From contig JAHCKS010000028.1 of the NCBI GenBank assembly GCA_026125665.1, positions 1 to 55,982 on the forward strand: a DNA stretch of 55,982 bases. The letters are read 5' to 3'. Made by a program: the position numbers and the translations under genes. Positions within the stretch are counted from its first letter, which is position 1; the number at the start of each line of letters is the position of its first letter. The notes under the pieces were generated by a model. It did not search any database. It was not told where the DNA came from and saw only the letters and a program-made list of their open reading frames with translations. Source of the DNA: Rubrivivax sp. GTDB lineage: Bacteria; Pseudomonadota; Gammaproteobacteria; Burkholderiales; Burkholderiaceae_C. Shown one piece after another: positions 1 to 15,721 of this stretch.

Positions 1-195
1 CAGCCGGTGCTCGTAGCGGTAGAAGTCGCTTTCGGTCAGCAGGTCGGCGGCGCGGTCCCAGGCCAGGTTGTCCAGCAGCAGGCCGCCGAGCACGCTCTGC
101 TCGCCTTCCACCGAGTGCGGCGGCACGCGCAGGCGGGCGATGTCGCTGTCGTGCGCGGCCGCCGGACCCTGGGTGAGATCGATCGGGCTGTTCAT
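1..195 (-). CDS. dnaB: Replicative DNA helicase DnaB, N-terminal fragment
   Basis: The first 65 codons of a minus-strand gene that leaves the window at position 1. The peptide begins MNSPIDLTQGP and contains PPHSVEGEQSVLGGLLLDN, the hallmark start of the DnaB N-terminal domain, which mediates hexamer assembly and primase contact. DnaB unwinds DNA ahead of the replisome. It lies just downstream of rplI, a common arrangement in betaproteobacteria. The helicase core lies outside the window. The ATG at 195 is the only reasonable start. Confidence 0.93.
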   Translation of the reverse strand, partial: MNSPIDLTQGPAAAHDSDIARLRVPPHSVEGEQSVLGGLLLDNLAWDRAADLLTESDFYRYEHRL

Positions 196-313
196 CGATT
201 CTGCAATCGTGCCCTGAGTTGGGCCTGACCGTGAGCGGGAAAGCTAGGAAGCCAGGGCTGTGGGCAGAGCTGTGGTCAACGTGTGACCTGGCAGGGAAAT
301 CTCCTCGGCCCAA

Positions 314-346
314 AAAGGAGAGAGGCCGGCAGGCCGGCCTCTCACA
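314..346 (-). terminator. Rho-independent terminator after rplI
   Basis: A 10-bp GC-rich stem (320-329 pairing with 334-343, 4-nt loop) lies 18 nt beyond the rplI stop. On the minus strand it is followed by TCTCCTTTTTGG, a usable U-tract. It should end the rpsF-priB-rpsR-rplI transcript before dnaB. The remaining 196-313 holds no gene that I can support and presumably carries the dnaB promoter and leader. Confidence 0.8.
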
Positions 347-361
347 TCGGCTGCGCGCGCG

Positions 362-814
362 CTACTCGACCTGCGCGACCACCTGCACGGTGACCTCGGC
401 CGACACGTCGCCGTGCGGCACGACGGTCACGGCATGCTCGCCGACGGTCTTCAGCGGCCCGCTCGGCAGCCGCACCTGCGACTTGTGCACCGCCAGGCCC
501 ATCTTCGCCAGGCCTTCGGCGACGTCGGCGTTGGTCACCGAGCCGAACAGGCGTCCGTCGACGCCGGCCTTCTGCACGATGCGCACGGTCTTGCCGGCAA
601 GCTGCTCACCCAGCGACTTCGCCGCGTCGAGCTTGGCCTGCGCCGCGCGCTCGAGCTCGGCCCGCTTGTCCTCGAACTCCTTGATCGCCGCCTCGGTGGC
701 GCGGCGCGCCATCTTGCTCGGGATGAGGTAGTTGCGGGCGAAGCCGTCCTTGACCTTGACGACGTCGCCCAGGTTGCCGAGCTTGCCCACCTTCTCCAGC
801 AGAATCACTTGCAT
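362..814 (-). CDS. rplI: 50S ribosomal protein L9
   Basis: A 150-residue protein, the normal L9 length. The N terminus [13 protein letters not shown] and the following GYARNYLIP-type stretch (here [13 protein letters not shown]) are the L9 signature in the rRNA-binding N domain. A long charged connecting helix around residues 40-75 ([15 protein letters not shown]) leads to the C-terminal domain. L9 binds 23S rRNA near the L1 stalk and helps keep the reading frame. Last gene of the S6 operon, 12 nt after rpsR, with a terminator just beyond. Confidence 0.97.
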
Positions 815-826
815 GGCTGCCTCCGC

Positions 827-1120
827 TCAGATCTTGTGCAGGTCGGTGTACGGCAGCAGGGCCAGGAAGCGGGCACGCTTGATGGCAGTCGTCAGCTGGC
901 GCTGGTAGAAGGCGCGCGTGCCCGTCAGGCGGGCCGGCGTGATCTTGCCGTTCTCGCCGATGAAGTCGCGCAGCGTGTCCACGTCCTTGTAGTCGATCGA
1001 CTCGACCTTGGCCACCGTGAAGCGGCAGAAGCGCTTGCGGCGGAACAGCAGGGATTGGGAACTGCGCTTGCCGCGCTTGTTGTCCTTGGCACCACGGCCT
1101 TTGCCACGGGGTGGGGGCAT
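827..1120 (-). CDS. rpsR: 30S ribosomal protein S18
   Basis: A 97-residue basic protein. The core ([10 protein letters not shown], then [12 protein letters not shown], then [22 protein letters not shown]) is S18, which pairs with S6 on the 30S platform. It is about 20 residues longer at the N terminus than E. coli S18, because of a Lys/Arg/Gly-rich extension ([19 protein letters not shown]). Such tails occur in betaproteobacteria. It lies between priB and rplI in the usual order. S6 and S18 together could bind the operon leader as autoregulators. Confidence 0.96.
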
Positions 1121-1188
1121 GTCAGGCTCCTCGAGAAAGTTGTGTGATATCGGTTGGGGTCAGGTCGCCACGGCTCGCCGGTTCGTCG

Positions 1189-1482
1189 TCACGACGACGC
1201 CGCTTCGACCTCGGTGATGTGGAACAGCCATCCGCGCCCGTTGCGCGCGCTGGTGACGAAGCCGGCAAAGGTGCCGCCCTGTCCCAGCGCCAGCGCCGCC
1301 AGCCGCTGCGTCACCGCCCCGATGGCCACCGCGCGCATCTCCATCGAGACCTTGCGGGGCTGGCCGTCCTCGCTCACCGTGGACTCGTGCTTCAGTGCCA
1401 GGTCCAGGGCGGGCAGGCCGGCCGGGGTGTAGCGCAGCGCCGAGCGCTGCACCAGCGTTGCGGCGAGCACGAGGCGGTTCAT
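1189..1482 (-). CDS. priB: Primosomal replication protein N (PriB)
   Basis: A 97-residue single OB-fold protein from an ATG at 1482 (MNRLVLAATLVQRSALRYTP). A longer reading frame to 1530 exists, but its added residues are Pro/Arg-rich and unlike the family. PriB is an ssDNA-binding dimer that works with PriA in replication restart. Residues such as PALDLALKHES and the C-terminal GRGWLFHITEVE fit PriB. The location between rpsF and rpsR is diagnostic in proteobacteria. Confidence 0.9.
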   Translation of the reverse strand: MNRLVLAATLVQRSALRYTPAGLPALDLALKHESTVSEDGQPRKVSMEMRAVAIGAVTQRLAALALGQGGTFAGFVTSARNGRGWLFHITEVEAASS

Positions 1483-1536
1483 GCCGCCTGGGTCGATGCC
1501 CCGCCGCTCGGCCGGTGGCCGCGCAGGCACGCCGCT

Positions 1537-1902
1537 TCAGGCGGAGGCGGCCTCCTGCCGCTCCTTGCGCGCTTCTTCGCGTTCCACGGCCTTCATCATC
1601 ACCGAAGGCGTGGTCTCGGCCTTGTCGCGGGCCACCGTCAGGTGGCGCAGCACGGCGTCGTTGAAGCGGAAGCCGGTCTCCAGCTCGGTCAGCGTCTCGC
1701 CGCTGCACTCGATGTTCAGGCACAGGTAGTGCGCCTTCGCGAGCTTCTGGATCATGTAGGCCAGCTGCCGCCGGCCCCAGTCCTCGACCCGGTGCACCTT
1801 GCCACCGGCGGCGGTGACCAGCCCCTTGTAGCGTTCCAGCATCGCCGGAACCTGTTCGCTCTGGTCCGGATGGATCAGCAGCACGATCTCGTAGTGACGC
1901 AT
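1537..1902 (-). CDS. rpsF: 30S ribosomal protein S6
   Basis: A 121-residue S6. The start [19 protein letters not shown] is canonical, and the ATG at 1902 is preceded by a good GAGGAG ribosome-binding site; the upstream in-frame extension is not S6-like. Further family marks are [14 protein letters not shown] and [10 protein letters not shown]6 binds S18 and 16S rRNA on the 30S platform. The C-terminal tail is charged and Ala-rich ([15 protein letters not shown]). First gene of the rpsF-priB-rpsR-rplI operon. Confidence 0.97.
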
Positions 1903-2084
1903 CGAAGCTCCTCGTGGATTCCGGCGTCCACGGCAAGGTGCCCGGGCCGGAAGCCGCCCTGCGAGGCCACGACCCGGTGATCTCCCGGGTCTCGGCCGCC
2001 GGCCCGGGGGCCGAAGCCAGGGCTGGGGCCGGGCCGCGTCCGAAGTGACGCAGGTGCGGCAAGGTGGAAAAGCTGCGAAGTATA
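1903..2084 (-). promoter_or_regulatory. Leader and candidate promoter of the rpsF operon
   Basis: On the minus strand a TATACT hexamer (2079-2084) is a candidate -10 box; no convincing -35 is seen. The roughly 170-nt leader that would follow holds an ACCCGG/CCGGGT hairpin (1972-1990) and, just before the ribosome-binding site, a GTGGA/TCCAC hairpin (1914-1931) whose loop contains CCG. A CCG element in a leader hairpin is the known feature of S6:S18 autoregulation. Assignment is tentative and based only on position and motif. Confidence 0.35.
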
Positions 2085-2158
2085 GCCGAGGCGCCGACGC
2101 CGCTGAGGGTGGGCTCGGCGCCGAGGCCACGCGGCCGTCATTCCCACCCCGAAAGCAG

Positions 2159-2188
2159 ATCGGCCCCCGGGTCGCCCCGGGGGCCGAT
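2159..2188 (-). terminator. Strong hairpin after the symporter gene
   Basis: A perfect 12-bp GC-rich stem (2159-2170 with 2177-2188, 6-nt loop) lies 33 nt downstream of the symporter stop on the minus strand. Only a short TTT follows (CTGCTTTCGG), so it may be a weak intrinsic terminator or a 3' stabilising hairpin separating this cluster from the ribosomal operon. Confidence 0.5.
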
Positions 2189-2221
2189 CGAGACTTCAGT
2201 CTTGCCGAGAGGCTCGAGCGA

Positions 2222-4351
2222 TCAGCGCGCGGCCGGCTTCAGGTTCGGGTAGCGCACGTGCTCCACCAGTTCCTGCACCTCGGCCTTCGGCGCCGGCGTC
2301 AGCAGGCTGACGACGATGATGACGAGGAAGCCGAGCGGCACGCCAAAGAGGCCGGCCGAGATCGGCTGGATGCCCCACCAGATGTTGTCGGCAATCGGGC
2401 TCGTCACGCCGAACACGCTGCGCAGCCAGGGCTGCGTTGTCGCCATGTAGTAGAAGGTGATGCCCAGGCCGGCGATGATGCCCAGCGCCGCGCCCCACTT
2501 GCTGGCGCGTTTCCAGAAGATGCCGAGCGTGAGCGCCGGGAAGAACGCCGCCGCCGCGAAGGAGAACGCCGCCGAAACCAGGAACAGGATGTCCGCCGGC
2601 TTCTGCGACGCCACCATCGCCGCGAGCACCGCGACGACCAGCAGCAGGATCTTCGAGATCATCACGCGGCGCGCCGTCGGCGCATTCGGGTCGATCATCT
2701 TGTAGTACAGGTCGTGGCTCAGCGCGTTGGCGATCGTCAGCAGCAGGCCGTCGGCCGTGGACAGCGCCGCGGCCAGGCCGCCGGCGGCCACCATGCCCGA
2801 GATCACGTACGGCAGGCCGCCGATCGCGGGAGTCGCCAGCACGACGATGTCACCGCCGATGCGCAGCTCACCCAGCTGCAGGATGCCGTCCTTGTTGACG
2901 TCGCTGACCGACAGCAGGGCCGGGTCGACCCGGTTCCACGCCGCGATCCAGTCCGGCAGCTTGTCGAACGGCGTGCCGACGACCATCGTGAATATCTCGT
3001 ACTTGACGAGCACCGCCAGCGCCGGCGCCGAGAAGTACAGGAGGAAGATGAAGAACAGCGACCAGGTCACCGACTCGCGCGCTTCCTTCACCGATGGCGT
3101 CGTGTAGTAGCGCATCAGGATGTGCGGCAGCGCCGCCGTGCCCACCATCAGGCAGAAGATCAGCGCCAGGAAGTTGCGCCGCGACTCGTCGTAGGCCTTC
3201 TTCGCCGCCGCGTCACCGTTCGGGTCCCCCGCGAACTGGTTGGCGTGGCGCGGCATGCCGCCCAGCGGGCGAGTGCGCCCATCGGCCGCCGCCTTGGCCG
3301 CCGTCCAGGCGGTCTTCGCGGCCGCCTCGTCCTTCGGCACCGCGGCGAGCGCCCTCTCCGCCGCCTGCACCTCGGCGAGCGGGGCCCCGGCCGCCTTCAG
3401 GTCGTCGACCTTCTTCTGCGCCGCGGCCCGGTCGGCCGCCAGCGCCCCAGGGATGTCCTTCAGCTTCGCGGCGAAGGCGTCGGACTGCGCCTTGAACGCG
3501 GCGATGACCTCCTTCTCCTTCGGGTCGTCGAGGAGCTCCTTCTCCTTGGCCGTCACCTTCTGCAGCTGCATGCCGTAGATCAGCTGCGGCACCGGGATGC
3601 TGGTCTGCTTCACCGACAGCCAGACCAGCGGGATCAGGTAGGCGATGATGAGGATGATGTACTGCGCCACCTGCGTCCACGTGACGGCGCGCATGCCGCC
3701 GAGGAACGAGCAGACCAGGATGCCGCCCAGGCCGACGAAGATGCCGATCTCGAACGCCAGGCCCGAAAGGCGCGTCGTGATGATGCCCACGCCGTAGATC
3801 TGCGCCACCACGTACGTGAACGAGCACAGGATCGCGGCGAAGATGCCCAGGAAGCGGACCAGGTTGCCCTCGTAGCGCGCGCCCAGGAAGTCGGGGATCG
3901 TGAACTGGCCGAACTTGCGCAGGTACGGCGCCAGGAAGAGCGCCACCAGGCAGTAGCCGCCGGTCCAGCCCATGATGAACGCGAGGCCGCTGTAGCCGGT
4001 GAGGTACAAGGTGCCGGCCATGCCGATGAACGACGCCGCGCTCATCCAGTCGGCACCGGTGGCCATGCCGTTGTAGATCGCGGGCACGCGCCGCCCGGCC
4101 ACGTAGTACTCGGCCGCGTCGCTGGTGCGGCTCATGATGCCGATGCCGGCGTACAGGGCCACCGTGGCGAGCAGGAAGACGATACCGATGGCCGCGCGGC
4201 CCAGGCCCATCTGCTCGGCGATGGCGACGAGGATGACGAAGACGAGGAAGCCGCCGGCATACCAGCCGTACACCTTGTTCAGCTGCTTCTTGAACGCCGC
4301 CCGGTCGGCGGCGGAGTAGCCGCTGCCGTGTTCGAAACTCATGCCTGCCAT
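2222..4351 (-). CDS. Sodium:solute symporter, VC_2705 subfamily (acetate/carboxylate type)
   Basis: A 709-residue inner-membrane transporter of the SSS family. N-terminal SSS features include a helix near 33-50, [28 protein letters not shown] at 81-108 (read in parts) and later [26 protein letters not shown]. It has two uncommon parts: a charged, Ala/Lys-rich, probably coiled-coil insertion at about 262-390, and a canonical EF-hand loop [12 protein letters not shown] at 484-495. The pair with the upstream DUF4212 gene (1-nt gap, shared ribosome-binding GAGGAA) is typical of this subfamily. Substrate cannot be read from sequence; acetate, pyruvate or lactate is an inference. ATG at 4351 is preferred over 4342 because of the ribosome-binding site. 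Confidence 0.9.
2867..2902 (-). other. EF-hand calcium-binding loop encoded in the symporter
   Basis: These 36 bases encode [12 protein letters not shown]. Positions 1, 3, 5 (D, N, D), 6 (G), 8 (aliphatic) and 12 (E) match the canonical 12-residue EF-hand loop. It lies in a non-membrane stretch between two hydrophobic segments of the symporter. Calcium binding is inferred from the motif only. Confidence 0.7.
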
Positions 4352-4352
4352 G

Positions 4353-4610
4353 TCATTCCTCCTCGGCGACGCCGTGCTCTTGGTCGAGCTTGTTCATGTA
4401 GTGTGCGTAGTAGCCGATGATCACCACGTACACGACCAGCGCGCCCTGGCCCCCAACCCAGAAGCTGAACGGCCAGCCGAAGAAGTTGAAGTTCAGGTCG
4501 CGGGCGAAGTAGCCGACGACGAAGGTCACCACGAACCAGATCGCCAGCAGGATCGCGGTGATCCTGAGGTTCTTCTGCCAGTAGTGGCGGTGGGTCTCAC
4601 TGACCTGCAT
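4353..4610 (-). CDS. DUF4212 small membrane subunit of the symporter
   Basis: An 85-residue protein with two hydrophobic helices (about 14-34 and 52-68) and an acidic tail. MQVSETHRHYWQKNLRIT and FFGWPFSFWVGGQGALVVYV are characteristic of the DUF4212/sodium-substrate symporter small subunit family, always found next to VC_2705-type symporters. It probably forms a complex with the 709-residue transporter encoded 1 nt downstream. An AAGGGG stretch precedes the ATG. Confidence 0.88.
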   Translation of the reverse strand: MQVSETHRHYWQKNLRITAILLAIWFVVTFVVGYFARDLNFNFFGWPFSFWVGGQGALVVYVVIIGYYAHYMNKLDQEHGVAEEE

Positions 4611-4859
4611 AGCCTTTGGCCCCTTTCTTCCCCCTTGCCCCGGGGCGGGCTTTGGGGGGTGCTTTGGTTGTCCCGGCCCGCCGCATCGGACCGGCCGCGC
4701 CGCGTGAGCGCCACCGGCCCGCGCCGTCGCGAACGAGCCACCGGGAGGGTCGTGCGCGGTGCTTACGGCCTTCTGACACTGCCGTGTCCCCGCGGGTAAG
4801 TCGCCTCCGTGGAAACCCGCAGGTCGTGGCGCCGACGCCGCAGCGGCGGGCCGCGCGAG
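4611..4859 (-). promoter_or_regulatory. Intergenic region upstream of the DUF4212/symporter pair
   Basis: A 249-nt stretch with no supportable gene; the reading frames crossing it are shadow-like. It is the only sizeable gap inside the cluster, so a separate promoter for the symporter pair is likely here. It contains an inverted repeat GACAC-TGCC-GTGTC (4775-4788) that could be an operator. I see no convincing sigma-70 or sigma-54 boxes. Confidence 0.3.
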
Positions 4860-6017
4860 TCAGCGCCGGTAGTCGAGCTCGATGCGCTGCTGCACCAGAC
4901 GCGCGGCGCGCAACGACCGGCGCAGGGCTTCGCGCTGCGCCGCATCAAGCCGGTCCCAGCCGACCCAGGCGCGCTGCGAGAGGTCCGCTCCGCCGAGCTG
5001 ACGGCGTTGCACCTGCAGGCGAAGCCGCTGCAGCGCCAGGAAGCCCTGCATCCACTCGTCGGCTTCGCCGGCGGGCACGCGCATCGCGCGTGCCGCCGCG
5101 CGCAGGCGCCGCACCGTGCCCGTCTCGCCCAGGCGATGCGCCAGGTTCCACAACCGGCCGGCGTCCACGAAGAGCGTCGTGCCGCCGGTCTTCAGGTCGA
5201 ACGCATCGATCCCCTCGTGCCGGCGGGTCACGACGCGACCGAGCCAGTTCAGCGGCACGTGGTTGCACAGCACCACGTCGGCCATCTGCTTGACGAAGCG
5301 CGGCACCGCCGCGGCGCTCGATCGCAGCAGCTCCAGCAGCGGTTGAGCCAGCGCGACGTCGCCGGCCACGGCACGCACGTCGAAGTAGATGCGCGCGGCG
5401 AACAGCGCGTTGCCGTCGCCGTGCGCCAGCCAGTGCTCGAAGCGCTGACACCACTCGGCCGGGCTCAGGCAGCACGGCGGCTGCCCCGCCATCAGCTGCC
5501 CGTCGCACAGCGGGTAGCCGCAGCGCGCCAGCAGCTCGTTGACACGGCGGCCGAACGCCAGCCAGGCCGGCCGCTGCGCCCGCGCGTCCGCCTCGTCGCG
5601 CGCGGCGAAGACGAGGCCGTTGTCCTGGTCGGTCAGCAGCGTCTGCTCGCTGCGGGCCTGCGAGCCGAAGGCCAGCCAACACGCCCGCCCGAGGTCGCGC
5701 CCCTCGCTCGCGGCCACCAGGCGCACGGCGGCGGTGCTGACACGGTCGTTGAGCTCGGTGATGGCCGCCGTCAGCGCGGCGGTCTGGCCGTGCGCTTCGG
5801 CCGCAGCGGGCGCTGCGGCCGTCGCGGCGGCCGCCTCGAGCGAGTCCAGCACCCCGGCGGCGGTCTCGACGATGCCCGCCGCAGCGGCAACCAGCTGTTC
5901 CTCGTCGCTTGCCGCCCCGATGGCCCGTGCCAAGGCAGCCAGCGGTGGCGGCAGATCGGCCGCCGCATCGGACGCGGCAGCCACCGCGCCCGGCACCTGC
6001 GCCTCAGTACGAGACAT
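4860..6017 (-). CDS. DUF294-type putative nucleotidyltransferase
   Basis: A 385-residue soluble protein. The nucleotidyltransferase motif GSQARSEQTLLTDQDNG at 118-134 has the Gly-Ser and the metal-binding Asp pair (130, 132) of the GlnD-like/DUF294 fold, followed by the DUF294 C-terminal helical region. Most relatives carry cNMP-binding and CBS domains before the transferase; here only about 110 Ala-rich helical residues precede it. Start ATG 6017 (MSRTEAQVPG), preceded by GAGG, overlaps the upstream exonuclease gene by 14 nt; a frame to 6074 is less likely. Substrate unknown. Neighbourhood with a symporter suggests a role in signalling or transporter control. Confidence 0.8.
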   Translation of the reverse strand: MSRTEAQVPGAVAAASDAAADLPPPLAALARAIGAASDEEQLVAAAAGIVETAAGVLDSLEAAAATAAAPAAAEAHGQTAALTAAITELNDRVSTAAVRLVAASEGRDLGRACWLAFGSQARSEQTLLTDQDNGLVFAARDEADARAQRPAWLAFGRRVNELLARCGYPLCDGQLMAGQPPCCLSPAEWCQRFEHWLAHGDGNALFAARIYFDVRAVAGDVALAQPLLELLRSSAAAVPRFVKQMADVVLCNHVPLNWLGRVVTRRHEGIDAFDLKTGGTTLFVDAGRLWNLAHRLGETGTVRRLRAAARAMRVPAGEADEWMQGFLALQRLRLQVQRRQLGGADLSQRAWVGWDRLDAAQREALRRSLRAARLVQQRIELDYRR

Positions 6018-8340
6018 GCGCCTCGGCCACGCGCTGCGAAGCCTCCCGCGCCTGGCCGAGCGTGACGATGCCACGCTCGGCCAGCAGCGGCACCAGGCGC
6101 AGCAGCACGCGCGCTGCCGTCAGCGCGTCGCCCAGTGCCTCGTGCCGGCCGGTGATCGCCACGCCCAGCCGCGCGGCGATCTGCTCCAGGTGGTGCTCGT
6201 CGTCGCGGTGTCCGGGCAGCACCGCGGCCGAGAGCAGCATCGTGTCCAGCACCGGCTGGTCGAAGGCGACGCCGGTGCGCACGCGCGCCAGCTCGAGGAA
6301 GCGCATGTCGAACGCGGCGTTGTGCGCCACCAGCACGGTGCCTTCGCAGAAGCGGGCGAAGGCCGGCAACACCTGCTCCAGCGGCGGCTCGCCGGCCAGG
6401 CTGGCCGTCGAGATGCCGTGCACCGCCTCGGCGCTGGCCCGCACGGCGCGCCTCGGGCGCACGCGGCGGTCGAAGCACTCGTCCTCGAGCAGGCGGCCGT
6501 TGACGATGCGCACCGCCCCGAGCGCGATGATCTCGTCGCCTTCCGAAGGGCGCAGGCCGGTCGTCTCGGTGTCGAACACCGTGCAGGCCAGCGCCGCGAG
6601 CGGTGTCTCGTCGAGCGCGGCGTTCTGCCCGGCCTGGTGGAACAGGTCGAAGTCGTAGGTCGCCGGGCGGCTGCGGACCCGTGCCGGCTCGGCAGCAGCG
6701 GGGCGCCGGGCGGCCGGCGCGCCCTCCGCGGGGGCCAGCTGCACGCACAGGCGCTGCCAGTCCTCGGGGCCGGACTGCGCCCACCACTCGGCGCCGTGGC
6801 GGTCGAGCACCTCGCGCAGCGAGGGCTCCTGCGCGGCGGCGGTGCCTTGCGGCGAGTCCTCGGCGCCATCTTCGCCGCGCACCCGTTCCCAGGCCGCCAG
6901 GCACCCCGGCGGCAGCGGCCGCCCCAGCCAGACCAGCTGCAGCCGGGTGGCCGGAGCCTCCGGCGGCTTGCGCGGCGCACCCAGCGGCGTGTCGCGCGCC
7001 GCCGCCGGCGCCGAGTCCACCTCGAACCGCACCTCGGCGACGCCGATCTCGGCGCGCAGGCGGCACGCCGCCCATGCCAGCAGCTGCACGATCGCATGGC
7101 TGTCGACGAGGCAGGCCCGCTCCGCGCCCTGCCCGTCGAAGCGGCAGGCCGGGCCCGCCGCCGCCTGCAACCGGCGCTGCAGCGCGAAGGCGATGTCGCC
7201 GGCGCGCACCTCCTCCAGCGGCCACGCCGTGGGCGCACCGCCACCGGGCTCCTGCAACGCCTCGCCGAGCTGGGCCGCGAGGCGCTCGGCCTCGTCGTGC
7301 ACGACGGCAGTGAAGCGCGTGCGTCGCGTCGCCTCCATCTGCGGGTACTGGTGCAACGCCTGCGCCGCGGCGCGCAGGTTGCCGAGCGCCGCGCGCGTAC
7401 CCTCGGTCAGGCGCAGCAGCAGCGCATCGCGCCGGCGCTGCGACCGCACCGAGTGCGTGATGTCGTCCAGCAGCAGCAGGTAGCCACCCGCCGCGCCCTG
7501 TTCGTCGAGCGTGGGCACCATCTGCACATGCAGCATGTCACCGCCCCCGCTGCGCCGGGCCACGGCGAAGCGGGCGATGGCCGGGGCGGCCGCGGCATCG
7601 CCGGGCGCTGCGTTCTCGCGCGCAGCCAGCCGCCGCTGCACCTGCTGCCAGGCGTGCTCCACCGCACCGGTCCCGAGCAGCGCGCCGATCGGCCGGCCCA
7701 GCCCGAGCAGCGGCGCGATCGATGCTTCCGCCGCCATGCCCGCCACCCCGTCGCGGCCGACGTCATCGCCGCCGGTCGGCGCACCGGCGCCGAGCAGGGC
7801 GCGGGCGCGCGCGTTGTAGAGCAGCACGTGCCCGTCGCGGTTGCAGACGACGACGCCGATCGTCAGCTCCGACATCAGGGTCGCCAGGCGGCGCGTCTCG
7901 GCAGCCAGTGCGGCGCGCGACGCCTGCACGCGCGACTCGACGTCGCGCTGCGCCGCCGCGTGCGCCTGCGCCAGCGCGTCGATGGCCTGCGCCAGTTCGC
8001 GCAGCTCGCGCGGGCCGGCGACCTGCACCCGGTGCCCGGCGTTCGCGGTGGTGACGACGGCCACCTGCTCGCGCAGGCGCTGCGCGGCCCGCGGCCAGGT
8101 GGCCACCCAGGGGCGCACCACCGCCCACAGCAGCAGCGGCAGCATCAGCGCCAGCAGCAGGGCGAGTCCGCCGCGGCCGCGCAGCGTCGCGGCCAGCGTC
8201 TCGCGTTCGGCCGGCGCGAGGTCCACCCACAGCAGGCCGGCGAATGCGCCGGCCCACGCCAGCACCACGGCGCAGAGCACGGCCACGGCGGCGGCCGTGC
8301 GGGGCGAGCCGGCGCGCCGCGGCTGCGGCGTCTCAGCCAT
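6004..8340 (-). CDS. Membrane-anchored PAS/pseudo-kinase protein fused to a DEDDh 3'-5' exonuclease
   Basis: A 778-residue fusion. Two N-terminal membrane helices (about 16-38 and 58-78), a HAMP-like/coiled linker (80-150), a PAS-like domain (about 152-296), a region shaped like a histidine kinase dimerisation and ATPase module (305-540) that lacks the phospho-His motif and G boxes, then a DnaQ-like exonuclease (about 585-760). All exonuclease residues are present: D590 and E592 (FDTETTGL), D678 (HNAAFDMRFL), H733 and D738 (RHEALGD). The upstream response regulator overlaps by 8 nt. ATG 8340 is chosen; a GTG at 8364 is possible. Probably an inner-membrane sensor that gates a nuclease acting on RNA, DNA or a small nucleotide; the role is unknown. 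Confidence 0.82.
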   Translation of the reverse strand: MAETPQPRRAGSPRTAAAVAVLCAVVLAWAGAFAGLLWVDLAPAERETLAATLRGRGGLALLLALMLPLLLWAVVRPWVATWPRAAQRLREQVAVVTTANAGHRVQVAGPRELRELAQAIDALAQAHAAAQRDVESRVQASRAALAAETRRLATLMSELTIGVVVCNRDGHVLLYNARARALLGAGAPTGGDDVGRDGVAGMAAEASIAPLLGLGRPIGALLGTGAVEHAWQQVQRRLAARENAAPGDAAAAPAIARFAVARRSGGGDMLHVQMVPTLDEQGAAGGYLLLLDDITHSVRSQRRRDALLLRLTEGTRAALGNLRAAAQALHQYPQMEATRRTRFTAVVHDEAERLAAQLGEALQEPGGGAPTAWPLEEVRAGDIAFALQRRLQAAAGPACRFDGQGAERACLVDSHAIVQLLAWAACRLRAEIGVAEVRFEVDSAPAAARDTPLGAPRKPPEAPATRLQLVWLGRPLPPGCLAAWERVRGEDGAEDSPQGTAAAQEPSLREVLDRHGAEWWAQSGPEDWQRLCVQLAPAEGAPAARRPAAAEPARVRSRPATYDFDLFHQAGQNAALDETPLAALACTVFDTETTGLRPSEGDEIIALGAVRIVNGRLLEDECFDRRVRPRRAVRASAEAVHGISTASLAGEPPLEQVLPAFARFCEGTVLVAHNAAFDMRFLELARVRTGVAFDQPVLDTMLLSAAVLPGHRDDEHHLEQIAARLGVAITGRHEALGDALTAARVLLRLVPLLAERGIVTLGQAREASQRVAEAHVSY

Positions 8341-8776
8341 CGTTGCGGGGGGCGTCCCGGGCACCGGCGCGCCCCAGCTGCCGCGCCACCTCGGCCAGCA
8401 GTTCCTTGATCGCGAAGGGCTTGGTCACGTAGGCGTCGGCGCCGAGCGCCAGCCCCTTCTGCACCTCGACCTCGCGCCCCTTTGCGCTCAGCATCACGAC
8501 ACGCAGGTCGCGCCATTGCGGATTGGCACGGATGCGCTCGCAGACGTCGAAGCCGCTGACGCGCGGCAGCATCACGTCCAGCAGCAGCAGGTCGGGCCGC
8601 TCGGCAGCCAGCGCGTCCAGCGCCTCCTGGCCGTCGCGCGCCACGCGCACGCGGTAGCCCGCCTCCTGCAGCACGAACTCCAGCGACAGCACGATGTTGG
8701 GCTCGTCGTCGGCGACGAGGATGGTGGCCGGGGCCGGGCCGGTCCGGGCGGCGTCGTGCGGGGCGGGGTCGCTCAC
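8333..8776 (-). CDS. Receiver-only response regulator
   Basis: A 147-residue single receiver domain. Acid pocket D23-D24, phospho-acceptor D67 (LLLLDVMLPR), S97 and K119 (VTKPF) are all present; nothing follows the receiver except a short basic tail, so there is no DNA-binding output. The GTG start at 8776 overlaps the stop of the sensor kinase gene as GTGA, indicating translational coupling and a cognate pair. The longer frame to 8893 would lie fully inside the kinase gene. It may signal by protein contact, possibly to the downstream exonuclease or nucleotidyltransferase. Confidence 0.9.
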   Translation of the reverse strand: MSDPAPHDAARTGPAPATILVADDEPNIVLSLEFVLQEAGYRVRVARDGQEALDALAAERPDLLLLDVMLPRVSGFDVCERIRANPQWRDLRVVMLSAKGREVEVQKGLALGADAYVTKPFAIKELLAEVARQLGRAGARDAPRNDG

Positions 8777-11553
8777 GTCGGTGTCACTCCCGGGGCCCGT
8801 GCGCCGCGCGCCGCACGCGACGGCAGGGGCGGTGAGACGCGCGGCAGCGTGAACGAGAACGTCGCGCCGCGGCCGACCTCGCTGGCCAGCCACAGCCGCC
8901 CGCCCAGGCGGCGGATGATCTCGCGGCTGATCGACAGGCCGAGCCCCGACCCCTTCGGCTTGTAGGTCAAGGTGTCGCCGAGCTGGCGGAACTTCTCGAA
9001 GATGTCACGGTGGTGCGCCGGGTCGATGCCCTCGCCATTGTCGGCGACGTCCACCTGCAGCACGTCGGGCCGCTCGTGCAGCGTCACCACCACCTCGCCT
9101 CCTTCCGCGCGGCTGAACTTGGCGGCGTTCGACAGCAGGTTCCACAGCACCTGCGTCACGCGGTCGGCGTCCGAGCGAAGCGTCGGCACCTGGTCGGGCA
9201 GGCGCAGCTCGAGCCGCACGCCGCGCTCGCGGAACAGCGCCGCGGTGCTCGCCGCCGCCTCCTCGATCAGTGCACGCAGGTCGACCTCGCCCGGGTGCCA
9301 GTCCGCCAGGCCGCTCTCGAGCTTGGCCAGGTCGAGCACCTGGTTGATCAGGCGCGTCAGGCGTTCGCTCTCCTTGACGATGACGGCCACGAACTGCGCC
9401 CGCCGCGCGGGCTCCAGGTCGGGGTGGGTGTGCAGGATCTCGGCCATCGCGCGGATCGACGTGAGCGGCGTGCGCAGCTCGTGCGTGACGGTGGAGATGA
9501 AGTCGTCCTTCAGGCGGTCCAGCTCCTGCAGCCGGCGGTTGGCGGCGCGCAGCTCGGCGCTGGCGGCCTCCAGCGCCTTCGACTTGGCCTCCAGCTGGTG
9601 GCTGTAGGCGATGACCTGCGACGCCTCGTCGAGGATGTGCAGCACCTGGTCCATGCCGAGCGGCTCCTCCTTCACGACGGAGGCGACCACCGCGCGCGCC
9701 GACGACGCACCGATGGCGCCGGCGAGCAGCTTTTCGGAGAAGCCGACCAGCTCCGTGTCGGGGCTGATCTCCTGCACCGAAGGCAGGGCGCGGCGCTGCG
9801 CGTAGTCGGCGAGCTCGCTCTGAGCCCTCGCCGGCCCGAGGAAACGCGCGAGCAGCGCCGACACCTCCTGCACCGAAGCGCCGGTGCGCCAGGTGCTGCG
9901 CGGCGCCACCTCGCGCCGGAAGGCGTCGACGAAGTGCGCGGCCTGCGCACGCTCGACCTCGCCCTGGCGGCCGAGCAGCGACACCGCCACGTAGGCGCCG
10001 GTGTTGGCCACGAGGCTCCAGAACAGCGCGTGCGTGGTGCTGTCCAGCCCGCTGAGGCCGAACAGCGCCAGCGGATTGAGCAGGGCCACGCCGAACGGGC
10101 CCGCCTCGATGAACGACACGGGCAGCCAGCCCGAGCGCGCGAACGACGGCAGCAGCAGCGTGTAGCCCCAGACGAGGAAGCCGAGCGTCAGCCCCGCGAG
10201 CGCACCCTCGCGCGTGCCACGCCGCCAGTACATGCCACCGAGCATGGCCGGCGCGAACTGCGCCACCGCCGCGAACGACACCAGCCCGATGGCCACCAGC
10301 GCGTAGGCCTCGCCGGCGACGTGGTAGTAGGCGTAGCCGAGCATCATCAGCACGACGATGGCGCCGCGCCGGATGCCGAGCAGCAGGCCGGTGAGGTCGG
10401 CGCGCCGCGCCAGCACGCCCTGCCGCCAGCGCAGCAGCACCGGCATCACGAGGTCGTTGCAGATCATCGTCGACAGCGCGATCGTCTCCACGATGACCAT
10501 GCCGGTGGCCGCCGACAGCCCGCCGAGGAAGACGAACAGCGTCAGCGCCAGCTGCCCGTGCGCCATTGGCAGCGTCAGCACGAAGGTGTCGGCATCCACC
10601 TGCCCGGCCGGGAAGTGCATCAGGCCGGCCACCGTGATCGGCAGCACGAAGATGTTGATGACGAGCATGTACAGCGGGAACAGCCAGATCGCCTTGGCGA
10701 CATGGTTCTCGTTGACGTTCTCGACCACGCCCACCTGGAACTGGCGCGGCAGGAACAGCACCGCCAGCGCCGAGAGGAACACGAGCGAGGCCCAGGCTCC
10801 GTAGCCGTCTTGCCCGGCGTCCAGCGTCAGCAGCTTCGCCAGTTCCGGCTCGGCGGCGGCGCGCGCCAGCAGCGGCCCGAAGCCGTCGTTCACGACGAAC
10901 GTCACGAAGACGCCGGCGGCGACGAACGCCAGCAGCTTGACGAGGGACTCGAAGGCGATCGCCGCCACCATGCCCTCGTGCCGCTCGGTGGCGTCGAGGT
11001 GCCGCGTGCCGAAGACGATGGTGAAGGCGGCCAGCAGCAGCGCGATGTAGAAGGAACTGTCGCGCCAGACCTCCACCACCACGCCCTTGGGCGGCATCAC
11101 CACGGCCGGGTACTGCAGCACGACGGCGAAGCTCACCGACACCGCCTTCAGCTGCAGCGCGATGTACGGGATGATGCCCACCACCGCGATCAGCGTGACG
11201 AGGCCGCCGAGCAGCGCGCTCTTGCCGTAGCGCGCGGCGACGAAGTCGGCGATGGACGTGATGCGCTGCGCCTTGCTGATGCGGATCATCTTGCGCAGCA
11301 CGACCCAGCCGAGCGCGAAGGCGAGCGTCGGCCCGAGGTAGATCGGCAGGAACCCCGGGCCGCTGGCGGCGGCGCGGCCGACGCTGCCGTAGAACGTCCA
11401 CGACGTGGCGTAGACGGCCAGCGACAGCGCGTAGATCGTCGGGTTGGCGATGATCGAGCGCCCGGCGTCGGCACGCTTGTCGCCGAAATAGGCGATGGCG
11501 AACAGCACGCCGAGGTAGGCGAACGAGATCAGGATGACGCCGGCGAGGAGCAT
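8773..11553 (-). CDS. Sodium:solute symporter-histidine kinase fusion (CbrA-like sensor)
   Basis: A 926-residue protein. Residues 1 to about 530 form a 12-13-helix SSS/SLC5 transporter domain. A linker (about 560-680, possibly STAC-like, ending in a coiled coil) leads to a complete histidine kinase: H691 in THELRTPLTSI, N box NLLSNAAKF (805-813), DNGEGID (838-844) and GSGLGLS (868-874). The architecture resembles CbrA, which couples nutrient sensing or transport to phosphorelay. It overlaps the receiver gene by 4 nt. A second, true symporter lies further down the cluster, so this one may report on the same solute. The ligand is unknown. Confidence 0.9.
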   Translation of the reverse strand: MLLAGVILISFAYLGVLFAIAYFGDKRADAGRSIIANPTIYALSLAVYATSWTFYGSVGRAAASGPGFLPIYLGPTLAFALGWVVLRKMIRISKAQRITSIADFVAARYGKSALLGGLVTLIAVVGIIPYIALQLKAVSVSFAVVLQYPAVVMPPKGVVVEVWRDSSFYIALLLAAFTIVFGTRHLDATERHEGMVAAIAFESLVKLLAFVAAGVFVTFVVNDGFGPLLARAAAEPELAKLLTLDAGQDGYGAWASLVFLSALAVLFLPRQFQVGVVENVNENHVAKAIWLFPLYMLVINIFVLPITVAGLMHFPAGQVDADTFVLTLPMAHGQLALTLFVFLGGLSAATGMVIVETIALSTMICNDLVMPVLLRWRQGVLARRADLTGLLLGIRRGAIVVLMMLGYAYYHVAGEAYALVAIGLVSFAAVAQFAPAMLGGMYWRRGTREGALAGLTLGFLVWGYTLLLPSFARSGWLPVSFIEAGPFGVALLNPLALFGLSGLDSTTHALFWSLVANTGAYVAVSLLGRQGEVERAQAAHFVDAFRREVAPRSTWRTGASVQEVSALLARFLGPARAQSELADYAQRRALPSVQEISPDTELVGFSEKLLAGAIGASSARAVVASVVKEEPLGMDQVLHILDEASQVIAYSHQLEAKSKALEAASAELRAANRRLQELDRLKDDFISTVTHELRTPLTSIRAMAEILHTHPDLEPARRAQFVAVIVKESERLTRLINQVLDLAKLESGLADWHPGEVDLRALIEEAAASTAALFRERGVRLELRLPDQVPTLRSDADRVTQVLWNLLSNAAKFSRAEGGEVVVTLHERPDVLQVDVADNGEGIDPAHHRDIFEKFRQLGDTLTYKPKGSGLGLSISREIIRRLGGRLWLASEVGRGATFSFTLPRVSPPLPSRAARGARAPGVTPT

Positions 11554-11592
11554 GCGGGCCTTGCGCTCGATCTGCCCGTGCGGGGCTGCCGG

Positions 11593-11934
11593 TCAGGGTC
11601 GCCGATCGCGCACGTCGCCGCGGCCCGGTGTGGCGGGTGTCGCGGTCGTGGCGGGCGCCGCATGCGCGGCGCCCGCCCCGCCCTGCCCCTCGTCCACCGC
11701 CTCGGCCGGCTCGCCGAGCGCGTCCGCCGCGTCGTGCGGCGCGCGCCGCCACGCGGCCAGCGCCAGCAGCGCGATCAGGCCGCCCCAGGCGCCGAACAGG
11801 TAGGCGTAGAGCACCGGGATGCCGAGCACGAACTCGGCCCGGTTGAAGACGGCCAGCAGCGGGTACGTCAGCAGCAGCACGCCGAGCGCGAAGAGGGCGA
11901 CGAGGCGCTGCGACTGGTCGGGCTGCAGGCCCAT
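11593..11934 (-). CDS. Small two-helix membrane protein
   Basis: A 113-residue protein with two hydrophobic helices (about 11-30 and 38-61) and a disordered Ala/Gly/Pro/Thr-rich tail. I do not recognise a named family with certainty. It sits 39 nt upstream of the symporter-kinase gene, the position taken by the small CbrX-type or subunit proteins near SSS-type sensors, so an accessory role for that sensor is plausible. ATG at 11934. Confidence 0.65.
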   Translation of the reverse strand: MGLQPDQSQRLVALFALGVLLLTYPLLAVFNRAEFVLGIPVLYAYLFGAWGGLIALLALAAWRRAPHDAADALGEPAEAVDEGQGGAGAAHAAPATTATPATPGRGDVRDRRP

Positions 11935-11970
11935 CGTCGTGCTCCGGCGCCGCGCCCGCCCGCGCTGCGC

Positions 11971-12549
11971 CTAGCGAGCCGGCTCTCCGGCCCGCAAGCC
12001 GGTCTCGCGCTCGAGCTGCGCCGCCACCTTCGGCTCGAAGCCCCTGAGGTGGCGGATGATCTTCAGCGCCTCCTCGGGCTGCGCGCGGTCGACCTGCACG
12101 CGCGCCAGCTGGTACCAGCCGTACGGGCTCATCGGCTGCAGCTCGGTGTTCTTCTTCAGCGCCGCGACGGCGGCGTCGTAGCGCTTCAGGCGGATCAATG
12201 CGAGGCCCATGCCGTACCAGGCGCGATCGAGCTTCGGGTCGATCGACGTGGCCCGCTCGAAGGCGGCGATCGCCTCCTCGCAGCGGCCGGCGGCCTCGAG
12301 CATGAAGCCGTGGTTGAACCAGCCGGCCGCGTCGTCGGGCGCGGCCTCCACGAGCTGCCCGTAGGCAGCGAAGGCCTCGTCCGAGCGCCCCGTCTCGGCG
12401 AGCACGTGCGCGCGGCTGGACAGCGCGTAGCGGTCGCCGGGCCAGCGGCGCAGCATCTCGTCGAACACCTGCAGCGCCGCCTCGCGGCGCGCGAAGACCA
12501 GCAGGGCGATGCCGCGCAGCTTGAGCCACAGGTAGTCGAGGCGGCGCAT
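11971..12549 (-). CDS. Tetratricopeptide repeat protein
   Basis: A 192-residue protein with about four TPR units, for example residues near 40-70 (ALSSRAHVLAETGRSDEAF), then GWFNHGFMLEAAGRCEEAI, AWYGMGLALIRLKRYDAAV and YGWYQLARVQVDRAQPEEAL. The N terminus (LWLKLRGIALLVFARR) is mildly hydrophobic and could touch the membrane. TPRs are protein-docking scaffolds. ATG 12549 is chosen since the frame upstream is Arg-rich and not TPR-like. It lies between YggT and the small membrane protein, in the same direction as the sensor cluster. Function unknown. Confidence 0.8.
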   Translation of the reverse strand: MRRLDYLWLKLRGIALLVFARREAALQVFDEMLRRWPGDRYALSSRAHVLAETGRSDEAFAAYGQLVEAAPDDAAGWFNHGFMLEAAGRCEEAIAAFERATSIDPKLDRAWYGMGLALIRLKRYDAAVAALKKNTELQPMSPYGWYQLARVQVDRAQPEEALKIIRHLRGFEPKVAAQLERETGLRAGEPAR

Positions 12550-12607
12550 CAGGCGCCCTCCGCATGGCGCGCCGCGGCGCCGATCGGGCGAGGGCCGGGC
12601 GAGCGGC

Positions 12608-12913
12608 TCACTGGCAGATCCCCTGCCCCACCAGGCCCGCCCTGACGCACTGGTCGATGCGTTCGAAGGTGACGATGGCGTAGACGAGCAGCAGCAGGAA
12701 GAACGTGACCACAGGCACGTGCGTATCGGCCACCTGCCGCGGCGTGACCTTGCGCACGACGAAGGTGAACGGCCTGGAGACCGTGCGCAGCAGCGTGTAG
12801 AAGAGGTTCTGCTCGCGCCTGGCGCCGGCCAGCACGTAGAGCACACCCTGCCCGGCGAGCGCCAGCAGCGCGATGTAGAGCACCAGTTGCACGTACTTCA
12901 GGAAGATGAGCAT
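12608..12913 (-). CDS. YggT-like inner-membrane protein
   Basis: A 101-residue protein with two hydrophobic helices (about 5-28 and 66-84) linked by a basic segment (LLRTVSRPFTFVVRKVTPRQV). The pattern hydrophobic helix, RPF..V..., hydrophobic helix resembles the YggT family. It heads the minus-strand cluster running down to the symporter. No enzymatic motif. Function unknown in this context. Confidence 0.65.
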   Translation of the reverse strand: MLIFLKYVQLVLYIALLALAGQGVLYVLAGARREQNLFYTLLRTVSRPFTFVVRKVTPRQVADTHVPVVTFFLLLLVYAIVTFERIDQCVRAGLVGQGICQ

Positions 12914-13071
12914 GGCCGCCCCGGCCTTCTTGCGTCGCCAACGACAGACACGCCATTGTCCGCCGCCGTCACGCAGGCCGGCACCGCCAGCGCCTTGGGC
13001 GGGCTAGGTGTTTCCCTGGAGTCCCGGGCAAGCCGATCGTCAGGGCACGGTCAGGTGCCTGCACGGCACCG
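12914..13071 (-). other. Intergenic region between ppsA and the YggT-like gene
   Basis: A 158-nt gap. Next to the ppsA stop there is a GGTGCC/GGCACC hairpin (13054-13070) without a U-tract, a weak terminator candidate. The rest should hold the promoter for the cluster headed by the YggT-like gene, but I see no clear boxes. Confidence 0.3.
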
Positions 13072-15504
13072 TCAGCGCTGCGCGAGCCTCAGCCACGTCT
13101 CGACGACGGTGTCGGGGTTGAGCGAGATCGAGACGATGCCTTCGCTGGCCAGCCAGTCGGCGAAGTCGGCATGGTCGCTCGGGCCCTGCCCGCAGATGCC
13201 CACGTACTTGCCGGTGGCGCGGCAGGCGGTGATGGCACGCGAGATCAGTGCCTTCACCGCCGGGTCGCGCTCGTCGAAGTCGTGCGCCAGCTGTTCCAGG
13301 CCGCTGTCGCGGTCCAGGCCCAGCGTGAGCTGCGTGAGGTCGTTGCTGCCGATGCTCATGCCGTCGAAGTGCTCGAGGAACTGCTCGGCCAGGATGGCGT
13401 TGCTCGGCACCTCGCACATCATGATCAGCCTCAGGCCGTTGGTGCCTCGCTTGAGGCCGCGCTCGGCGAGCATGCGCACGACCGCCTCCGCCTGCTTCAC
13501 CGTGCGCACGAAGGGCACCATGATCTCGACGTTGGTGAAGCCCATGTCGTTGCGCACGCGCCTGAGGGCCTCGCATTCCATCGCGAAGGCATCGCCGAAC
13601 TCGCCGCTGATGTAGCGGCTGGCCCCGCGGAAGCCGAGCATCGGGTTCTCCTCGTCGGGCTCGTAGCGCGTGCCGCCGATGAGCTTGCGGTACTCGTTGC
13701 TCTTGAAGTCGGACAGGCGAACGATCACCGGCTTCGGCCAGAACGCCGCGGCGATCGTCGCCACGCCCTCGGCGAGCTTGTCGACGTAGAACGCGCGCGG
13801 GCTGGCGTGGCCGCGGGCCACCGACTCCACGGCCTTCTTCAGCTCGGGATCGACGTTCGGGTAGTCGAGGATCGCCTTCGGGTGCACGCCGATGTTGTTG
13901 TTGATGATGAACTCCAGCCGCGCCAGGCCGACGCCGGAGTTGGGGATCTGCGCGAAATCGAAGGCGAGCGTCGGGTTACCGACGTTCATCATGATCTTGA
14001 TCGGGCAGTACGGCATCTCGCCGCGCTTGACCTCGGTGATCTCGGTCTCGAGCAGGCCGTCGTAGACGTAGCCGGTGTCGCCCTCGGCGCACGAGACGGT
14101 GACCAGCGCCCCTTCGGCGATCTTCTCGGTGGCGTTGCCGCAACCCACCACCGCCGGGATGCCGAGCTCGCGCGCGATGATCGCGGCGTGGCACGTGCGC
14201 CCGCCGCGGTCGGTGACGATGGCCGCGGCGCGCTTCATCACCGGCTCCCAGTTCGGGTCGGTCATCTCGGTGACGAGGATGTCGCCCGGCTGCACGCGCT
14301 CCATCTCGGCCGGGCTGCGCACCAGGCGCACGGTGCCCGTGCCGACCTTCTGGCCGATGGCGCGGCCTTCGGCCAGCACCGGCGTCTTGCGGCGGTCGCC
14401 CTTGAGCCTGAAGCGCTGCTCGACGCGGCCGGCCGCGCCGCTGTGGCTCTTCACCGTCTCCGGCCGGGCCTGCAGGATGTAGAGCAGGCCGTCTTCGCCG
14501 TCCCTGCCCCACTCGATGTCCATCGGCCGGCCGTAGTGCTTCTCGATCACCAGCGCATAACGCGCCAGCTCGATGACGTCGGCGTCGGCCAGCGAGTAGC
14601 GGTTGCGCTGTTCCGGCGGCGTGTCCGCCACCTTCACCAGGCGGCCGCTGGCCGCCTTCTCGGCGGCGCTGGCGAACTGCATGCGCTGCAGCTTCGAGCC
14701 GAGCGAGCGGCGGATGATCGGGAAACGGCCGGCCGCGAGCGTCGGCTTGTGCACGTAGAACTCGTCGGGATTGACGGCGCCCTGCACCACCGTCTCGCCG
14801 AGGCCGTAGCTCGACGTGATGAACACCACCTGGTCGAAGCCGGACTCGGTGTCGATGGTGAACATGACCCCCGCGCTGCCCAGGTCGGAACGCACCATGC
14901 GCTGCACGCCGGCCGACAGCGCCACGTCGGAGTGCGCAAAGCCCTTGTGCACGCGGTAGCTGATGGCGCGGTCGTTGTACAGCGACGCAAAGACCTCCTT
15001 CACGCGGTGCAGCACCTCGTCGATGCCATGCACGTTGAGGAAGGTCTCTTGCTGCCCGGCGAACGAGGCGTCGGGCAGGTCCTCGGCGGTGGCCGAGCTG
15101 CGCACGGCGAAGCTGGCATTCGGATGGTCGGCGGCGAGCCGTTGGTAGTGCTCGCGAATCTTCGCCTCCAGCTCGGGCGGGAACGGCGTGTCGGCCACCC
15201 AGGCGCGGATCTGCGCCCCGGCCTCGGCCAGCGCGCGCACGTCGTCGACGTCGAGCGCGGCGAGCTTGCGGTGGATGCGCTCGCCCAGGCCCTCGTGCTG
15301 CAGGAACTGCCGGAACGCCAGCGCGGTGGTGGCGAAGCCGCCGGGCACGCGCACGCCGCTGGCGGCCAGTTGGCTGATCATCTCGCCGAGGCTGGCGTTC
15401 TTGCCGCCCACCACCTCGACGTCGGTCATCCTCAGCTGTTCGAACGGGACGACCAGGGCGGCCATCGCCTGCCCAACGGCGGGCCGTGCAGCGGCGTTTG
15501 ACAT
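13072..15504 (-). CDS. ppsA: Phosphoenolpyruvate synthase
   Basis: An 810-residue enzyme converting pyruvate, ATP and water to PEP, AMP and phosphate in gluconeogenesis. N-terminal ATP-grasp-like domain ([28 protein letters not shown]), phospho-histidine domain with H439 in GGRTCHAAI, and PEP-utilising TIM barrel ending with C771 in ICGQGPSDH, the catalytic proton donor region. Length is normal. ATG 15504 starts [12 protein letters not shown]. Divergent from ppsR, whose product toggles PpsA activity by phosphorylating the threonine beside the catalytic His (T437 here). Confidence 0.97.
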
Positions 15505-15721
15505 GGGAAAGCTCCGTGATGAGGGGAAACCGGTGCTTCCGCATGCGCGCGCCGAACCTGCGCGGCCGCGCGACGCGGCGTTGCGGCCGAGGCGACGGGC
15601 GACGAGCCTGGCAGGTTCACGGGCGGGGGCGCTGCGGGGAAAACTGCGGCGGATTCTAAGGAGATTGCTCCTATGATGGCCCGCGCCTGCCGCCCCCCGG
15701 CCCGGCGGTCGGAAAGTCTCC
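15505..15721. promoter_or_regulatory. Divergent ppsA/ppsR promoter region
   Basis: A 217-nt divergent intergenic region. It contains a perfect inverted repeat AGGAG-ATTG-CTCCT (15659-15672), flanked by a minus-strand TAGAAT (15652-15657, candidate ppsA -10) and a plus-strand TATGAT (15672-15677, candidate ppsR -10). No good -35 boxes. The repeat lies between the two candidate -10 boxes, so it could be a shared operator. Tentative. Confidence 0.35.

Follow-up and report, generated by a model that had tools for sequence, protein, structure and literature searches.

A dead histidine-kinase core joined to a DEDDh exonuclease in a recurring SLC5-kinase and symporter gene cluster of Rubrivivax sp.

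Introduction

In Pseudomonas, the SLC5-type histidine kinase CbrA is accompanied by the protein CbrX, which is reported to bind its SLC5 domain (PMC13022988), and the acetate regulator MxtR/ErdR (CrbS-CrbR) is described as controlling an operon made of PP_0354, which encodes a CBS-domain protein, and an exonuclease gene; Pflu5625, the counterpart of PP_0354, is annotated with both CBS and nucleotidyltransferase domains (PMC9927547, PMC5715377). In Caulobacter, DivL is an example of a pseudokinase reading a receiver in its phosphorylated form, in that case DivK (PMC4211667). Here we describe a gene cluster of Rubrivivax sp. (assembly GCA_026125665.1) that resembles each of these systems in part. 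It lies on contig JAHCKS010000028.1, of which positions 1-55,982 of the forward strand (55,982 nucleotides, nt) were analysed and are called the window, and it consists of nine genes, named A to I, all on the - strand, spanning 2222-12913 and transcribed from the A end. The new element in it is the product of gene F, a membrane PAS protein in which a dead histidine-kinase core is joined to a DEDDh exonuclease. We propose, with a probability of about one half, that the sensor kinase D signals to the receiver E and E to F, which would read phosphorylated E as DivL reads phosphorylated DivK and would thereby gate its own nuclease.

The cluster shares with CbrXA and CrbS-CrbR an SLC5-type histidine kinase, a small membrane protein encoded upstream of it and an acetate/pyruvate context. 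In contrast to CrbS-type kinases, D shows neither a PAS nor a C-terminal receiver match, a single-domain receiver is encoded separately, there is no LuxR-type regulator in the cluster, and a pseudokinase-nuclease is encoded downstream. The Pseudomonas operons PP_0354-PP_0353 and PA3232-PA3235 (CBS protein, exonuclease, actP and yjcH) likewise combine DUF294-type and RNase_T-type proteins with a symporter under an SLC5-type kinase, but their control is described as transcriptional, and no kinase-core fusion is mentioned in the portions of these papers that treat them (PMC9927547, PMC9765439); the nuclease of F carries membrane helices, a PAS domain and a dead kinase core. The pair F-E is like DivL-DivK in that a histidine-kinase fold without phospho-histidine goes together with a single-domain receiver, as judged for F and E from sequence and model (PMC4211667). 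DivL, however, targets the kinase CckA whereas F ends in a nuclease; the likeness would be one of function, and orthology is not claimed.

Protein F joins a dead kinase core to a nuclease

The genes on which the argument turns are:
8773..11553, - strand: D, SLC5 (symporter-like) sensor histidine kinase of 926 amino acids (aa) with HisKA and HATPase_c; His691 and the ATP boxes are present.
8333..8776, - strand: E, single-domain receiver (Response_reg only) with phospho-acceptor Asp67.
6004..8340, - strand: F, 778 aa, with two N-terminal membrane helices, a coiled linker, PAS, dead DHp-CA and a DEDDh exonuclease.

Domains were called by Pfam/NCBIfam profile searches of the cluster proteins, in which weak matches were considered to E 0.1, and for B, E, F and G the start codon was picked by hand. 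F matches RNase_T (Pfam, 1.1e-32), with PAS and HAMP matches below the cut-off, and its DEDDh motif is complete (FDTETTG, HNAAFD and RHEALGD). The phospho-acceptor histidine of its kinase core is absent in 86/86 aligned rows with a residue at that column, which rules out F as an active kinase; the alignment holds 92 rows, a small number of which are stand-alone or fused exonucleases instead of complete F, and the copies at L229, L240 and L242 are outside it. The earlier note, made from the letters of the window alone, had already recognized a membrane PAS/pseudo-kinase with an intact DEDDh exonuclease here. An AlphaFold2 model of F was obtained with a predicted local distance difference test (pLDDT) value of 81.7, and in a structure search with the whole of F (VIA-align) its exonuclease part matched PolC and the epsilon subunit. 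Since exonucleases swamped that search, a separate model of DHp-CA was made and searched, and this model matches histidine kinases. By full local alignment, the DHp of F scores 108 against that of D and no more than 58 against 58 other HisKA domains of the genome; in an earlier tblastn search D was not listed among the best rows. Moreover, the ratio of non-synonymous to synonymous substitution rates (dN/dS) indicates that the dead core is under purifying selection, and the exonuclease has the lowest ratio of five F regions in 7 of 10 pairs and is tied in one more. Variants of F that have no DHp-CA yet retain the nuclease were found at L051, L052 and L162. Among the papers listed by our literature search, which had most subscription journals outside its scope, none is on this architecture.

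The receiver E is encoded directly upstream of F

E, the receiver-only regulator of the earlier note, has Asp67 and Asp24 in 90/90 rows. Loci were collected by a scan with D (the best 80 of 580 relatives), and in all 49 of these with enough room E precedes F on the same strand; this count omits L130, L134, L154 and L162, where the exonuclease match is below 150 bits and E is not directly upstream of that nuclease gene. The order E-F is kept even in six loci in which D has moved to a downstream position or to the opposite strand (L137, L139, L157, L160, L164 and L185), and E is also present in a seventh locus with a moved D, L136, which offers less room. In two scans made with F, E is upstream of F in 13/19 and in 12/17 loci, the latter being 20 loci less three that are cut upstream (L234, L238 and L248). 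In most loci the gene just before that of the pseudokinase encodes its likely partner, which now looks like the most telling point and is one that the earlier note, while seeing the pseudokinase, did not make. Elsewhere F has no adjoining E, with an E orthologue at another place in the genome (L037, L041, L230, L231 and L237), and in seven genomes with F an E orthologue was not detected (G020, G150, G270, G102, G872, G979 and G756, the last being cut upstream).

Two alanines at positions +11/+12 of the DHp of F are kept in 73 of 78 copies with E and in 1 of 7 copies without E, in a count that leaves out L050, L234, L248, L130, L134, L154 and L162 as well as L229, L240 and L242. This decay echoes what is described for DivL, whose DHp-CA part is often missing in species without DivK (PMC4211667). 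Furthermore, in L154, a metagenome-assembled genome (MAG) of Desulfobacterales, the stretch 4760-6539 has E followed by a 351-aa PAS-pseudokinase, after which come C-D; this pseudokinase has neither membrane helices (by eye) nor a nuclease, and a separate exonuclease gene lies near G. The layout supports the pairing of E with the pseudokinase, yet it shows that the nuclease can be a gene of its own. It is one of eight loci in the D scan with the N-terminal part of F and no nuclease match, of which six are at contig ends, L149 has a weak match of 42 bits and L154 is real.

The gene set recurs across genomes

The cluster is a recurring, conserved module. In the 46 scanned loci where D is flanked by 9 kb or more on both sides, C was found in 42, E in 44, F in 33, G in 30, H in 24, I in 29, acs (acetyl-CoA synthetase) in 15 and phosphoenolpyruvate (PEP) synthase in 8, and the complete set of C, E, F, G, H and I in 18; as these loci are the closest relatives, the shares are upper values. 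Among 300 Burkholderiales genomes, which are related and include the own genome, 17 have D and F, 5 only F, 16 only D and 262 neither (Fisher p=1e-14). F was counted as present there at 195 bits or more, which excludes G271 (104 bits, exonuclease part only), and the D orthologues are 33 of 36 genomes at E<=1e-120, three with 41-46% identity (G179, G267 and G176) being left out. F thus occurs in 22/300 Burkholderiales genomes and in 18/369 genomes of the class, with the own genome in both; 20 regions were fetched from these 22 genomes, and the own one, G073 and G123 (contig edges) are not among them. Chance clustering of the genes is ruled out by this co-occurrence. Rarity elsewhere was one of the outcomes that the earlier note had named as telling against its proposal; the members co-occur far beyond the own genome, with the restriction that F is absent from 16 of the 33 genomes with D and that G is reversed or not found near F in some loci.

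The order PEP synthase-A-B-C-D-E-F-G-H-I-rpsF of the window appears in several Hydrogenophaga loci as PEP synthase-C-D-E-F-G-A-B-H-I-rpsF, with G reversed. Of the 69 scanned loci with room, 18 have acs no more than 1.5 kb upstream of D and 7 have a PEP synthase homologue there, and these neighbours, together with the Pseudomonas MxtR/ErdR operon, support the link to nutrients suggested in the earlier note. In 12 regions around D, mostly from genomes without F, the order acs-C-D is repeated and E is usually present. Acs was not found in the own cluster, and the best acs match of the own genome is truncated where contigs C107 and C101 end.

Some occurrences lie outside this pattern. In Pseudomonas aestuarii SA3-5 (L117) C-D-E-F occupy 9800-15291, with a D that is 71% identical to that of the window and no G in the fetched flanks, and either horizontal transfer or a misassigned contig is possible. 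E-F units were also seen in MAGs labelled Deltaproteobacteria/Desulfobacterales, Spirochaetia and Caldilineaceae (L136, L139, L185, L166 and L181), which could mean a wide spread or mixed bins. Three genomes (G733, G857 and G030) have two copies of F each, one directly after E and the other near symporter-like genes without E.

Kinase D and the other genes of the cluster

A profile of the D family (13 homologues) aligns to PDB chain 10ed_A over residues 7-626 of D (E 7e-95) and extends as far as 10ed_A residue 589, which belongs to the STAC part, where similarity is weak; the Pfam family SSF does not match this symporter half. K206 of D, invariant in the 13-row alignment, stands opposite K196 of 10ed_A, and K196 of the CbrA chain is placed in the Na2 site in the CbrA paper, where 10ED is mentioned once, for the Pseudomonas CbrA structure (PMC13022988). 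With HisKA and HATPase_c following, the symporter-histidine kinase fusion of the earlier note is borne out, and by its sequence D is classed as a CbrA/CrbS-type SLC5 histidine kinase, a CbrA-type transceptor. Neither PAS nor Response_reg matches D in Pfam to E 0.1. A homologue of C is found upstream of D in 70/79 D loci, the position that CbrX has relative to CbrA.

No LuxR-type response regulator was found in the cluster. A CrbR-type LuxR regulator as the partner of D in the own genome seems unlikely, since the best matches (44-46%) adjoin other HisKA genes, on contigs C1 and C113, but the genome is 88.6% complete and absence is not proven. In some relatives a LuxR-type response regulator follows D or E (L194 9853-10488, by Pfam; L203 6959-7612 and L130 13157-13843, both by eye), and it is likely an alternative output of D. 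In several Burkholderiales loci a reversed OmpR-type response regulator gene (by eye) lies near H or D-E, for example at L036 12552-13226 and L202 6484-7155.

The remaining genes, apart from G, and the gene next to the cluster are:
12608..12913, - strand: A, 101-aa membrane protein of no family; homologues adjoin H-I in several relatives.
11971..12549, - strand: B, TPR protein of 192 aa (TPR matches); homologues accompany A and H-I in several relatives.
11593..11934, - strand: C, small membrane protein encoded just before kinase D, CbrX-like in position.
4353..4610, - strand: H, DUF4212 small symporter subunit (TIGR03647, 105.4 bits against a cut-off of 26.05).
2222..4351, - strand: I, VC_2705-family sodium/solute symporter (TIGR03648, 798 bits against a cut-off of 320.75).
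13072..15600, - strand: PEP synthase (context; identified by eye, with an approximate start), upstream of A at a distance of 158 nt.

A and C had no match in the Pfam/NCBIfam searches to E 0.1, while H and I, both above their NCBIfam cut-offs, are the small and large subunits of the two-part VC_2705/DUF4212 symporter that the earlier note had read. Its description of nine co-directional genes with several overlaps holds as well: the overlaps are 4 nt (D/E), 8 nt (E/F) and 14 nt (F/G), and the gaps are 58 nt (A-B), 36 nt (B-C), 39 nt (C-D), 249 nt (G-H) and 1 nt (H-I). The gap between G and H is wide enough that H-I could have a transcript of their own. A scan of 2000-13200 with the sigma-70 consensus gave zero promoter-like sites, which says little in a GC-rich genome, and the 4 terminator-like sites in the same scan, against 2.6 expected, are uninformative. 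Directly upstream of the cluster, a gene resembling a PEP-synthase regulator (by eye; 15722-16546, + strand) is divergent from the PEP synthase gene. Past the symporter gene I, window positions 1-2130 hold the ribosomal genes rplI, rpsR and rpsF together with a priB-like gene (identified by eye), and the I-rpsF junction was found again in Hydrogenophaga loci.

Protein G and its relation to the nuclease

The gene that follows F is:
4860..6017, - strand: G, DUF294 + DUF294_C nucleotidyltransferase-like protein of 385 aa, without CBS domains.

G matches DUF294 (7e-36) and DUF294_C (5.6e-29) in Pfam, where it has no CBS match; versions bearing CBS domains occur in relatives. Its translation contains FGSQAR..TDQDN, which we take to be an intact active site. 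G is on the strand of F and no more than 2.5 kb away from it in 18/50 and 14/20 loci, and on the opposite strand in 11/50. Single proteins composed of RNase_T, two CBS domains, DUF294 and DUF294_C were found in 5 of 398 genomes of the phylum and in addition at L134; the search of the 398 genomes gave eight matches at E<=1e-60, three of them only across the CBS-DUF294 part. The neighbours of the fusion gene at L221 are H-I, an SLC5-like kinase that contains PAS and receiver, and a LuxR-type regulator, and L224 resembles it; H-I lie near the fusion at L225 and a D-like gene at L223, whereas at L222 the fusion has no H-I, LuxR-type regulator or kinase nearby. Such fusions support a shared pathway of exonuclease and DUF294 protein, not yet to write/erase chemistry or to a bond on which both act.

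Proposed mechanism and alternatives

We assume that the cluster may be a module for sensing and uptake of monocarboxylates of the acetate/pyruvate type. C and D would form a transceptor kinase, in which the SLC5 half of D, partnered by C, would detect a carbon compound and the HisKA-HATPase half would phosphorylate E. The DHp-CA part of F, having presumably lost the making of phosphate and kept the receiver-docking face, would bind phosphorylated E, and this docking may pass a change to the membrane-held C-terminal exonuclease and so gate it. The nuclease of F and G would act in one pathway on their presumed substrates, and H-I would import a substrate of their own; their cargo, like the ligand of D, is putative.

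Several observations weigh against this proposal. F occurs in genomes without a detected E, so that it can work without E and needs another input there, and in one of these, G756, the Ala-Ala motif is kept. Conversely, D is present without F in the 16 genomes mentioned, and in most of the D-only loci examined E is beside D, where it must have another output. The Ala-Ala motif was chosen after looking, its rows are related and not independent, and in the DHp alignment D and F also disagree at several further docking-type positions; the D-like DHp of F may merely reflect an origin of F from a copy of D. L051 has E right upstream of an F without DHp-CA, and the pseudokinase of L154 implies that the reading of E need not act via a fused nuclease.

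Among the alternatives, the one that survives best, though we consider it only half as probable as the proposal above, is plain co-regulation, in which C-D-E would be an ordinary two-component system with E acting elsewhere and F an independent PAS-sensing nuclease of the same operon. The genomes with D and no F, the seven with F and no detected E orthologue, and the LuxR-type regulators after D or E at L194, L130 and L203 fit it, but it leaves unexplained why E stays upstream of F in 49/49 loci even where D has moved, why a dead core is under purifying selection and why the DHp motif is lost in 6/7 copies of F without E.

A further reading, which is compatible with the proposed D-E-F pathway and which we hold to be rather improbable, is a carbon-controlled pair of steps in which G would attach a nucleotide to RNA or protein and the F exonuclease would take it off. 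GlnD contains nucleotidyltransferase, hydrolase and sensor domains within one protein, and the exonuclease-CBS-DUF294 fusions unite the same three kinds of domain, with a DEDDh exonuclease in place of HD and CBS in place of ACT. Besides the fusions themselves and the symporter, SLC5-like kinase or D-like genes near four of them, the placement of DUF294_C and GlnD_UR_UTase in one Pfam clan (PMC3710099) speaks for this idea, whereas the isolated fusion at L222, the inconstant position and strand of G and the mutants described in P. putida, where loss of the exonuclease PP_0353 gives poor growth on pyruvate and loss of PP_0354 gives no pyruvate defect (PMC9927547), speak against it. The pairing of nuclease and nucleotidyltransferase put forward in the earlier note is upheld by the fusions; writing and erasing of one and the same mark is still conjecture, and the interpretation in the note is partly supported overall.

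Pseudokinases can also serve as sinks or scaffolds, and F might work backwards, its dead core absorbing or holding phosphorylated E near D and tuning the signal while the nuclease is not gated by E. That F shares the DHp of D and that the pseudokinase after E in L154 has no nuclease would agree with this, but the nuclease motif is intact in full-length rows of F, the exonuclease mostly has the lowest dN/dS, and the variants at L051, L052 and L162 keep the nuclease without DHp-CA; we regard it as unlikely. The least probable of these is the combined idea that the D-E-F pathway uses F and G as a GlnD-like write/erase pair (nucleotidyltransferase, hydrolase, and CBS or membrane sensor) that would mark RNA or protein by acetate/pyruvate supply, a carbon-side counterpart of GlnD.

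Implications

If F reads phosphorylated E, a repurposed kinase core would connect a bacterial two-component pathway to a regulated nuclease as its end point, and the principle known from DivL would be used with a quite different output and fairly commonly (22/300 Burkholderiales and 18/369 class genomes). In that case the CBS-DUF294/exonuclease pair in the acetate regulon of Pseudomonas, so far unexplained, would gain a signalling context open to tests with purified proteins. Nutrient sensing and a nuclease may be directly wired together in this cluster.

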